DNA of 64,000 nt. Origin: Microvirga sp. 17 mud 1-3 (GTDB taxonomy: Bacteria; Pseudomonadota; Alphaproteobacteria; Rhizobiales; Beijerinckiaceae). Below, piece by piece: positions 54,929 through 56,822 of the stretch; positions within the stretch are counted from its first letter, which is position 1; every line of letters begins with the position of its first letter. Both the position numbers and the translations under genes were made by a program. The stretch is from the NCBI RefSeq assembly GCF_003151255.1, contig NZ_CP029481.1, positions 2,418,001 through 2,482,000 of the forward strand. Direction: 5' to 3'. The notes under the pieces were generated by a model. It was given only the letters and a program-made list of their open reading frames with translations, was not told the origin of the DNA and did not search any database.

Positions 54929-56386
54929 ATGAATATTCGATACGGCAGCGTGTGCAGCGGCATAGAGGCCGCGACCGTTGCGTGGCACCCGCTTGGCTGG
55001 AAGGCCGCATGGTTCGCGGAAATCGAACCGTTCCCCAGTACGGTGCTGGCACACCATTACCCTGACGTGCCCAACCTGGGCGACATGACGAAGATTGCCG
55101 AGCGCATACGCGCCGGTGAAGTGCAAGCCCCCGACGTGCTGGTGGGCGGGACACCGTGCCAAGCGTTCAGCGTGGCCGGTATGCGTGGCGGGCTGTCTGA
55201 TGCCCGTGGCGCCTTGACTATTTCTTTTGTGGAATTGGCTGATGAAATCGACAGAACAAGAATTGCAGCAGGGAACGAACCCTGCACCGTCGTGTGGGAA
55301 AACGTACCAGGCGTTTTATCGTCCAAAGATAACGCTTTTGGATGCTTTCTTGGGGCACTCGCCGGCGAAGCTGACGCGCTGCAGCCACCAGGGGGAAAAT
55401 GGGCGAACGCTGGTTATGTGCGCGGACCCCAAAGAACAATCGCGTGGCGCATTCTGGACGCCCAATATTTCGGAGTGGCCCAACGACGCCGCCGTGTGTT
55501 CGTTGTCGCAAGTGCTGGTGCGCGGTTCGATCCCGCAGCAGTACTTTTTGAGTTCGAAGGCGGCCGCCGGGATTCTGCGCCGCGCCGAGAAGCGGGGGAA
55601 GAAACTGCCGGCACTCTTGCATCACGCACTGGTGCAGGCGGCTTTCAAGGGACAGACGAAGCCTGCAGCGGATACGTGCAACCCGTTGCCGTTGCCCTGC
55701 GTGGACGCGACGGGGGCGCAACCGCAGAATTAGGCGACGATGTGTCGTTTACGCCGCGCGCGTGCAGCGGTGGCGGTGACAAGCCGCACGTTATCGTGCC
55801 TGTCGCGTTCGGCGGGAACAACACCAGCGGCCCCATCGACGTTTCGCCAGCCCTAAACGCATGCGGCAGTGCCAGCGGCCGCCTGGATTTCGAATCCGAA
55901 GCGTTCCTGGTGCAGCCTGTCGCTCATGTCGAAACCATGCCGGCCATTACGTGCGGCGGTGGTCATGCCGCCAGCCACAACCAGACAAGCGGCCAGATGC
56001 GGGGTCAGTACATCCTTCCCGTTCTGGCGTTCGACATCCTGGGCACACCGGCATCCGAAGTAGCGAAGCCCACGGACGTGCACACCCCGCTGCGCGCACG
56101 TACCCCTGGCCAGTTCGAAAACAGCACCGTAACGGTGATTGCCCACTATTACGCCGTGCGCCGACTGATCCCGATGGAATGCGAACGGCTGCAGGCATTC
56201 CCTGACGGGTACACTCTGGTGCCGGTGCGAGGCAAACCAGCGGCCGACGGCCCGCGCTACAAGTCGCTGGGCAATTCCATGTGCGTGAACGTCATGCACT
56301 GGATAGGCAAGCGACTGGACCGCGCGCTGCGCACGGCAGTGCCCGCGAACGACAACAAACTGAACGCCACCGACGTGGCCGCATGA
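54929..56386 (+). CDS. dcm: DNA cytosine-C5 methyltransferase
   Basis: A 485-residue C5-MTase with motif I GSVCSGIEAATVAW, catalytic motif IV GGTPCQAFS (Cys77), motif VI WENVPG (124-126), motif VIII QRRRRVFVV (about 185-193), a long variable target-recognition region (about 200-410), motif IX RRLIPMECERLQAFPDGY and motif X SLGNSMCVNVMHWIG. All catalytic motifs are intact. No restriction endonuclease gene is near, so it is an orphan phage methyltransferase, probably protecting phage DNA. Residues 105-268 share their DNA with a second frame (55242-55733). Confidence 0.94.
   Translation: MNIRYGSVCSGIEAATVAWHPLGWKAAWFAEIEPFPSTVLAHHYPDVPNLGDMTKIAERIRAGEVQAPDVLVGGTPCQAFSVAGMRGGLSDARGALTISFVELADEIDRTRIAAGNEPCTVVWENVPGVLSSKDNAFGCFLGALAGEADALQPPGGKWANAGYVRGPQRTIAWRILDAQYFGVAQRRRRVFVVASAGARFDPAAVLFEFEGGRRDSAPRREAGEETAGTLASRTGAGGFQGTDEACSGYVQPVAVALRGRDGGATAELGDDVSFTPRACSGGGDKPHVIVPVAFGGNNTSGPIDVSPALNACGSASGRLDFESEAFLVQPVAHVETMPAITCGGGHAASHNQTSGQMRGQYILPVLAFDILGTPASEVAKPTDVHTPLRARTPGQFENSTVTVIAHYYAVRRLIPMECERLQAFPDGYTLVPVRGKPAADGPRYKSLGNSMCVNVMHWIGKRLDRALRTAVPANDNKLNATDVAA
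55242..55733 (+). CDS. overlapping gene nested in the methyltransferase gene
   Basis: A 163-residue frame lies entirely inside the methyltransferase gene, in a different forward frame, from ATG 55242 (TTG 55227 is possible). It is not just a shadow. AKLTRCSHQGENGRT, GAFWTPNISEWPN and the block FLSSKAAAGILRRAEKRGKKLP match a protein type I recall as a separate gene in many phages (AGILRRAEKRGK is its hallmark). It spans methyltransferase motifs VI to VIII, so two conserved proteins are encoded in the same DNA. Function unknown. The identity rests on motif memory, and expression is untested. Confidence 0.7.
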   Translation: MKSTEQELQQGTNPAPSCGKTYQAFYRPKITLLDAFLGHSPAKLTRCSHQGENGRTLVMCADPKEQSRGAFWTPNISEWPNDAAVCSLSQVLVRGSIPQQYFLSSKAAAGILRRAEKRGKKLPALLHHALVQAAFKGQTKPAADTCNPLPLPCVDATGAQPQN

Positions 56387-56568
56387 CTATGAACAAACGC
56401 ACGAAACGCCTGCATCAGCTGATGGCGCGGCACGAACTGAACGCCGACCAGGTGGCCGCTCTGCTGGGGCGCGCATCCACCACCGTGGCGATGTGGCGCG
56501 TGGGCAAACCGCGCACGATCCCGGCGCACATGCTGCAGCTGCTGGAAATGAAGCTGGGCGCGAAATGA
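56383..56568 (+). CDS. small helix-turn-helix protein (XRE/Cro-like)
   Basis: A 61-residue protein consisting of one HTH domain: LHQLMARHELNADQVAALLG, then STTVAMWRVGKPRTIP and LQLLEMKLGAK. The recognition helix pattern (TTVAMWR) is of the XRE/Cro type. It overlaps the methyltransferase stop (ATGA), so the two are coupled. It may regulate the methyltransferase promoter, whose -10 lies in a palindrome. That is inference. Confidence 0.82.
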   Translation: MTMNKRTKRLHQLMARHELNADQVAALLGRASTTVAMWRVGKPRTIPAHMLQLLEMKLGAK

Positions 56569-56822
56569 AGGCGCCAGCGTGCCAGCGCGACCGCACAGTA
56601 ACGCTGCAAGTCAGCGGCGAAGCGGTGTGCGCCTGGTGCGAACAATACCGCCACGAATGCGAGGCGCGGCACGTCATGGCGCGCAGGACACTGGCCGAAC
56701 GCAGGGAATACCTGGCGGGCGTGGAAAAACACAGGGGTGCGGCAGAACGCCAGCGCCTGGAAAAAACAATCATGGCGCTGTGGAAGCAGCGTAAGCAGAA
56801 AAATGAACCCAGCGGAACGTGA
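56565..56822 (+). CDS. small phage protein with CxxC and CEARHV motif
   Basis: An 85-residue protein with VCAWCEQYRHECEARHVMA, RTLAERREYLAGVEKHRG and a basic C-terminus. This arrangement recurs in small proteins of betaproteobacterial phages (possibly DUF7696, from memory). The Cys/His set could bind zinc. ATG 56565 overlaps the upstream stop. Its end overlaps the primase gene by 20 bases. Confidence 0.75.
   Translation: MKAPACQRDRTVTLQVSGEAVCAWCEQYRHECEARHVMARRTLAERREYLAGVEKHRGAAERQRLEKTIMALWKQRKQKNEPSGT

Follow-up and report, generated by a model that had tools for sequence, protein, structure and literature searches.

Many phages appear to encode a second conserved protein in a shifted frame of the gene for a DNA-methylating enzyme. 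We analysed one such gene, coding for a C5-cytosine DNA methyltransferase (MTase), in a stretch of 64,000 nucleotides from a Microvirga genome (the window), together with its relatives in viral and bacterial sequences. The best reading of these comparisons is that two proteins come from one stretch of DNA, the nested frame being conserved and under selection of its own. Because canonical C5-MTases carry a homologous segment in frame after motif VIII, the core of the nested protein is probably the enzyme's own post-motif-VIII segment, displaced to the +1 frame. This homology between the nested core and the in-frame segment of ordinary C5-MTases, as judged from profile alignments, is new in the present analysis.

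The main-frame product of the window gene was identified as a C5-cytosine DNA methyltransferase by a match to Pfam PF00145 (E = 1.7e-34) and by the presence of motifs I, IV, VI, VIII, IX and X, and it also matched PHROG 116 (E = 3.8e-85). The motif names in Table 1 are those that we take to apply. All motifs from I to X lie in one ORF of the main frame, and the essential motifs are thus not divided between two polypeptides as in a two-subunit C5-methyltransferase of the M.AquI type. The first-pass annotation had described an uninterrupted 163-residue frame with its own ATG inside this gene, and the coordinates confirmed both the frame and its overlap with MTase residues 105–268, including ENV (124) and QRRRRV (185). 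An alternative TTG start at 55227 would give a protein of 168 aa. Nested proteins are small and basic (pI 9.4–9.6 in three proteins), and among the gene neighbours in the window are a dUTPase and a VapE/Toprim protein. In 645 of 5,000 synonymous-codon shuffles of the window MTase, the +1 frame held an open stretch of at least this length; an open frame in the window gene alone is within chance, and the case for the nested frame therefore rests on relatives. A chance ORF would fit the window gene taken alone, but it was ruled out by the comparison across relatives.

Between the MTase and the VapE/Toprim gene, the window encodes a DUF7696 family protein of unassigned function (56493–56822, E = 5.8e-17). 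PHROG 864, labelled 'DNA primase', matched the window MTase with its profile positions 652–1056 (E = 1e-58), and a fusion protein may account for this label. Between the nested core and motif IX (window 55740–56160 and the same region of L085, L091 and P0183), the sequence seems, as judged by eye, to consist of recurring Gly/Thr-rich stretches (for example THTLKAEGFDASEDGTGRG and AFDTTQITSKANRSNP) whose number differs among relatives.

Table 1. Positions of the main-frame and nested features in the window and in related loci.
Feature	Position	Strand	Remarks
C5-cytosine DNA methyltransferase (MTase) ORF	54929..56386	+	Frame 0, 485 aa
Window MTase motifs	I 54947-54973; IV 55148-55180; VI 55298-55306; VIII 55481-55501; IX 56162-56215; X 56264-56293	+	
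Possible weak Shine-Dalgarno GGAA	55231..55234	+	7 nt 5' of the nested ATG; duplex energy -3.3
Nested start codon ATG	55242..55244	+	ATG at the same position in 79/81 MTases, window included
Nested ORF	55242..55733	+	+1 frame of the MTase; ATG start, stop 55731-55733; 163 aa, 17.6 kDa, pI 9.4
Nested core (residues 88-130, LSQVLVRGSIPQQYFLSSKAAAGILRRAEKRGKKLPALLHHAL)	55503..55631	+	Appears homologous to the post-motif-VIII segment of canonical C5-methyltransferases (hhalign, reciprocal HMM)
Split loci, core + motifs IX-X	L085 (= L087-L089), L086, L091, L532, L537		
P1 dmt	AF234172 66412-68676		Holds the nested ORF
P1 nested ORF	AF234172 66728-67201		157 aa, begins MQLT

With the nested protein as query, 645 homologues at E ≤ 1e-3 were found among 5.8 billion proteins, and the best 120 of them were listed. 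The comparison with phage proteins that the first-pass annotation had proposed gave abundant homologues, with tblastn matches in 140 phage records at E ≤ 1e-5 (60 listed). Among the matches listed were P1, P7 and phages of Vibrio, Pseudomonas, Caulobacter, Mycobacterium, Streptococcus and Ruminococcus, and the annotation under the tblastn match was a methyltransferase or a hypothetical protein in most of the 60 listed rows. Within the phylum of the window, 6 of 398 genomes, the window's own included, contained a nested-protein match. The profile phrog_16143 (139 positions, 'DNA methyltransferase') matched three of six nested proteins scanned, with E values down to 5.4e-6, and the nested protein of the window at E = 0.079 only. 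Five nested proteins compared with NCBIfam yielded a single weak match (E = 0.033), and a sequence search of solved structures gave no match for the nested family at E ≤ 1.

Since a choice of loci by the nested frame itself was to be avoided, we fetched loci from IMG/VR by MTase similarity, although this fetching was not wholly blind to the overlap, as some of the six search words per query fall inside it. Three sets were obtained with the MTases of the window (best 80 of 598), of a Ruminococcus phage (Firmicutes-type set, best 80 of 556) and of a Mycobacterium phage (third set, best 80 of 406). The core lay in one open frame with a preceding start codon in all 240 of these loci, as counted with an HMM built from nested sequences of the same loci, and tblastn with two nested queries found the nested frame in 355 of 356 loci. 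The sequences in these counts are related and not independent.

We then compared selection in the two frames. Synonymous constraint was measured as codon identity at columns with an identical amino acid, relative to each pair's own level outside the overlap. Across 81 MTases, the observed/expected ratio was 0.67–1.14 outside the overlap and 1.33 in the edge window (residues 97–111), and from this window to about residue 247 it ranged between 1.23 and 2.14, with a peak of about 2.1 over residues 185–231. The first half of the nested frame was less constrained than the core, and its last part (residues 241–271) was unconstrained, with ratios of 0.81–0.94. Similar values were found for 71 distinct Firmicutes-type MTases (1.23–2.16 over residues 91–245, with one window outside the overlap also high, 1.41 at 251–265) and for 71 MTases of the third set (1.22–2.06 over residues 61–215).

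We also counted stop codons. Over the 81 sequences, +1 stops numbered 63 in residues 97–108, none in 109–228, 3 in 229–240 and 59 in 241–252; the 71 Firmicutes-type sequences likewise had no +1 stop in residues 111–230, where the +2 frame had up to 120 stops per window. Nested residues 17–134 were open in the +1 frame in 77 of the 81 sequences, compared with 10 expected from synonymous shuffles, and the same stretch was open in the +2 frame in none and in the three antisense frames in 41, 29 and 5. For the four exceptions (L010, L019, L077 and L083), the mapped segments were longer, and their cores proved open in the later count of 240 loci.

Conservation was also specific to the nested frame. 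In residues 217–228 of the 81 MTases, the most variable position was MTase codon position 1, which is the third position of the nested codon, and nested identity (0.70) exceeded MTase identity (0.49). Between clades (25 × 25 sequences, L034 numbering), identities in the nested, MTase and +2 frames were 0.68, 0.40 and 0.33 over residues 205–216, and 0.60, 0.16 and 0.22 over residues 217–228. Across homologues, the second frame is therefore open beyond chance and under frame-specific purifying selection, as overlapping genes are expected to be. The codon-level examination suggested in the first-pass annotation thus pointed to purifying selection on the nested frame in all three MTase-fetched sets; neither a lack of outside homologues nor frequent nested stops without purifying selection, which had been named as signs against the claim, was encountered. 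The dual-coding region comprises some 120–140 codons, and to our knowledge a conserved dual-coding region of such length is unusual for double-stranded DNA viruses.

The nested start codon imposes AAT or GAT on the MTase in place of AAC or GAC. It was present in 71 of 71 Firmicutes-type genes, and elsewhere T-ending codons made up 45% of D/N codons in the window's set and AAT 53% of Asn codons in the Firmicutes-type genes. We compared Shine-Dalgarno pairing at the nested ATG with that at other ATGs, using a rule that set the start at the ATG nearest upstream of the core, which is wrong for some loci. Pairing was stronger at the nested ATG in the Firmicutes-type set (mean -6.4 vs -3.3 kcal/mol, p = 5e-19) and in the third set (-5.1 vs -3.2, p = 9e-8); in the window's set the nested ATG had no such advantage (-2.4 vs -3.2, p = 0.89). 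In the Firmicutes-type set (L164, L166, L170, L171 and L178–L257), a +1 stop was found five codons before the nested ATG, at about MTase residue 104, in 71 of 71 distinct genes. A GAGGTG-like site lies between this stop and the nested ATG in most of the examples printed, possibly a stop-start arrangement, and AGR accounts for only about 41% of the Arg codons elsewhere in these genes.

Given that the first-pass annotation had recognised in the nested protein a block from stand-alone phage proteins, we looked for the nested frame apart from an MTase. A pattern search of 507 loci, a set that includes nested-protein-fetched loci and duplicates, placed the core in +1 relative to MTase motif VIII in all 465 loci where both were placeable (27 had no core pattern match and 15 no nearby motif VIII). 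In genome contigs, phylum genomes and the third viral set, the nested match overlapped an MTase in +1 in 103 of 106 loci; of the other three, L353 lies at a contig edge, L356 has no detected MTase, and L272 was missed by BLAST but is in +1 by motif pattern. No convincing locus with the nested frame but without an MTase was found among the 106 loci. The stand-alone phage proteins were thus not confirmed, and such homologues look like the nested frame itself. The annotation had left a choice between an expressed nested protein and two merged genes; a conserved coding frame with its own selection held up, and a merged separate phage gene did not, as the core also resembles an MTase segment.

Some individual loci showed unusual arrangements. 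L356 (2917–3168, an Oscillospiraceae MAG) contains an 83-aa ORF with the nested core, perhaps a relic or a rare separate copy. In Mycobacterium phage Thibault (L169, 1341–3142), an HNH gene interrupts the MTase just after motif VIII, and the nested core, annotated as gp104, lies downstream. In Mycobacterium phage Porcelain (L167, 2068–3268), the MTase is annotated as two genes, 116 (motifs I–VIII) and 117 (motifs IX–X), and the nested ORF lies inside gene 116 in the frame of gene 117.

The lead to the origin of the core came from canonical MTases. The nested HMM matched none of 30 canonical MTase loci of the host's family at E ≤ 10, and gave only one weak match (L423, E = 0.0037) in 59 loci fetched with a canonical MTase. 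This match, first taken as a weak nested match, lay immediately behind motif VIII in frame 0 and was the decisive clue. When aligned by hhalign with 77 canonical MTases, the nested core was placed just after motif VIII, with a moderate match (score 34.9, probability 79%, P = 1.6e-5). The controls scored lower, at most 19.5 for 200 column-shuffled cores and 13.7 for the reversed core. When only the window's clade was used, the +1 frame scored 23.8 at the same place (probability 15%) and the +2 frame 10.5, and frame 0 matched motif VIII itself only.

In the reverse direction, we searched the 240 loci with an HMM of the canonical segment that holds no nested sequence. In 178 of the 203 loci with any match, the best place was inside the nested ORF, although nested ORFs make up 1.5% of the residues searched; the mean score there was weak (11.7 bits) and was 6.4 for the 25 others. 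Both directions thus support homology between the nested core and the canonical post-motif-VIII segment at the corresponding place. In a tree of 95 sampled MTases, a single branch separated 63 nested from 32 canonical sequences (SH-aLRT 99), and the same 63/32 split was obtained from residues 1–101 only (SH-aLRT 95), a one-clade result that is limited by long branches and unsampled intermediates.

We further examined loci in which the core is joined to other parts of the enzyme. By motif patterns, the core ORF continues into motifs IX–X and the other ORF ends after motif VIII in eight loci with five distinct core ORFs (Table 1), and in L151 motifs I–VI are fused to the core and motifs VIII–X lie in the other ORF. 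Only in L085–L089, L091, L532, L537 and L151 were the motifs divided between two polypeptides. Past the overlap, differences at codon positions 1/2/3 of the nested frame were 7/5/42 between L085 and L086, and 43/40/92 between L086 and L091. The post-overlap part of L085, L086 and L091 thus evolves as coding sequence in the nested frame, which indicates translation of that frame at these loci, unless it is reached through a frameshift. A further 111 proteins with the core in a longer frame were newly listed among the 120 listed of 261 matches. The frame runs on to motif IX, motif X or both in 54 of them, N-terminal motifs (I, IV, VI) precede the core in 29, neither is present (or the core pattern failed) in 27, and one shows nothing but a motif VI-like match. 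In none of the 111 did motif VIII stand in frame ahead of the core. The core is therefore found on its own, attached to the front part of the enzyme, or attached to its back part, which is what one would expect if it is a piece of that enzyme.

A copy of the gene is present in phage P1 (dmt; Table 1). Of 5,426 complete E. coli genomes, 493 had a match to the P1 stretch, in most cases on a plasmid. In the 40 E. coli matches listed, the nested frame was never annotated as a separate gene. All nine P1-like copies that we fetched had an open nested frame of 154–160 aa; the MTase of L458 and that of L459 are themselves flagged as incomplete in RefSeq, and in L458 an insertion-sequence gene follows close behind. 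Variable MTase third positions in six P1-like copies (four of the nine fetched copies, whose upstream sequence differs, were dropped) numbered 14 of 135 in the overlap and 14 of 105 upstream, with no clear excess of constraint. Among the variable codons of ten P1-like copies, 20 were nonsynonymous and 6 synonymous in the nested frame, compared with 10 and 15 in the MTase. According to the accessible part of PMC12707154, P1 dmt is needed in Dam- hosts, and that part does not mention a second product.

The P1-like dmt genes (L454–L462 and L001) share the nested stretch and differ on both flanks. In 4 of 9 copies the similarity to P1 begins only about 80 nt upstream of the nested ATG, and in 19 of 40 listed E. 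coli records the match to the P1 stretch ends at nested nt 406. Past nt 406, another allele still encodes a nested end with RGRKLPxxL in the four copies of this kind that were fetched. In P1-like copies, the ends of the MTase may be exchanged by recombination while the nested core stays constant.

Taking these results together, we consider it likely that the gene is dual-coding, and that the nested core is a displaced MTase segment, translated separately, which as a subunit makes up in trans for the segment that the main-frame enzyme lacks. In the ancestor of the phage clade, the post-motif-VIII segment would have been displaced to +1 by shifts on both sides, and the displaced segment would have been kept since as a separately translated piece. 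The main frame would yield a full-length C5-methyltransferase with motifs I–X, and internal initiation at the nested ATG (55242) on the MTase mRNA would yield, from the +1 frame, a small basic protein of about 17.6 kDa. This protein may bind the MTase made from the same mRNA, take up the position left vacant by the displaced segment, at the edge or entrance of the target-recognition region, and act as a subunit needed for activity or assembly. With all motifs in one ORF of the window main frame, the nested piece need not be required, and the retention of the nested frame in every MTase-fetched locus favours a task tied to the MTase. On balance, we also incline to the broader view that the whole phage C5-methyltransferase clade, P1 Dmt included, is an unrecognised two-protein enzyme, whose segment would have slipped out of frame in a common ancestor and would be supplied in trans from the overlapping frame in phages of at least four bacterial phyla, the phyla being those of the hosts of the named phages.

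The main competing explanation, which we regard as rather unlikely, accepts a genuine nested protein and gives it a job of its own, for example in anti-restriction or as a regulator of the methyltransferase or the host, with the likeness of the core reflecting ancestry only. The small size and basic charge of the protein and its dUTPase and VapE/Toprim neighbours would suit such a job, as would phage Thibault, which keeps the core as a separate gene beside its HNH-interrupted methyltransferase. However, an accessory host-directed gene should at times be lost, whereas the nested frame was present in 240 of 240 methyltransferase-fetched loci and was not convincingly seen without a methyltransferase, and the natural fusions seen by motif pattern are to methyltransferase parts. 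The databases also contain separate hypothetical proteins of the nested family, as would be expected if a separate phage gene had been juxtaposed with the methyltransferase and then merged into it. We rejected this origin as highly improbable, given the constant +1 placement of the frame inside the methyltransferase in the DNA loci examined, where the oddities are L356, L353 and Thibault gp104 (after an HNH insertion), and given that the core matches the methyltransferase's own segment.

A programmed ribosomal frameshift would instead let ribosomes slip to +1 and add the core to motifs I–VIII, producing a second methyltransferase form. This would agree with the position of the core after motif VIII in canonical enzymes and with the 29 of 111 classified proteins in which N-terminal motifs are fused to the core, but we hold it to be improbable, since motif VIII was in frame before the core in none of these 111, the +1 frame is free of stops and under constraint already from the ATG, well ahead of motif VIII, and the ATG is conserved, with the Firmicutes-type +1 stop just upstream. 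Synonymous constraint by itself cannot separate a protein from a conserved RNA or DNA element, or from codon bias, that fixes synonymous sites without any protein. Such an element, which would favour no single frame, was rejected on the frame-specific conservation and seems scarcely credible: nested identity over the core exceeds that of both other frames, nested third positions are the most variable in residues 217–228, a start and stops delimit the open stretch, and the split loci continue as coding in the nested frame.

The proposed two-protein enzyme has partial parallels among known systems. In the two-subunit C5-methyltransferases M.AquI and M.EcoHK31I, the motifs of one enzyme are shared between two polypeptides, and in M.EcoHK31I the small subunit is reportedly encoded in an alternative frame overlapping the large one. 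Unlike in these enzymes, the window main frame keeps motifs I–X and the small protein is fully nested; the nested core corresponds to the post-motif-VIII segment only, and the nested protein covers motifs VI–VIII in the other frame. The accessible part of PMC3404938 places the natural split of M.AquI after motif VIII, in the variable region, which is where the nested core and the split loci L085, L086 and L091 lie. The same part reports that complementation between artificial fragments of M.SssI is best if the C-terminal one begins in the stretch that separates motif VIII from the target-recognition domain; those fragments are engineered and in the same frame.

As far as the accessible part of PMC11855218 describes it, the ShiLan domain is an out-of-frame HNH endonuclease hidden in a mycobacteriophage methylase, and it resembles the present case in that a second protein lies in another frame of a phage methylase gene. 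ShiLan, however, is inserted, homing and sporadic, whereas the nested frame overlies conserved motifs VI–VIII in 240 of 240 MTase-fetched loci. No HNH domain was found among 75 nested members scanned, which gave only five single-member weak matches to other families. An HNH or homing insertion of the ShiLan type was therefore rejected, the nested frame also not being absent from near relatives. Overprinted gene pairs, in which two proteins come from one DNA stretch, are known in viruses (review PMC8227390, accessible part); compared with these, the nested core, which would have been displaced from within the gene that now contains it, appears to be the older partner, and the main-frame peptide that overlies the core the newer one. 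Searches of one open-access library, with subscription journals mostly outside its scope, listed no description of the nested/MTase pair. The out-of-frame HNH endonucleases (PMC11855218) came nearest, and nothing on the pair was found in the accessible parts of PMC3439449, PMC6456624 and PMC3711429 or in PMC5009743.

The dual-coding region is conserved in phages of Escherichia, Streptococcus, Mycobacterium and Akkermansia hosts, and with a copy in phage P1 the proposal is testable at once. Gene callers choose one frame or the other, and the nested frame would therefore explain many database proteins whose function is unassigned (645 matches). If the nested protein is a subunit, phage C5-methyltransferases expressed from recoded genes would miss a part of the enzyme. 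If true, our reading would show how part of an enzyme can change frame and persist as a protein of its own.
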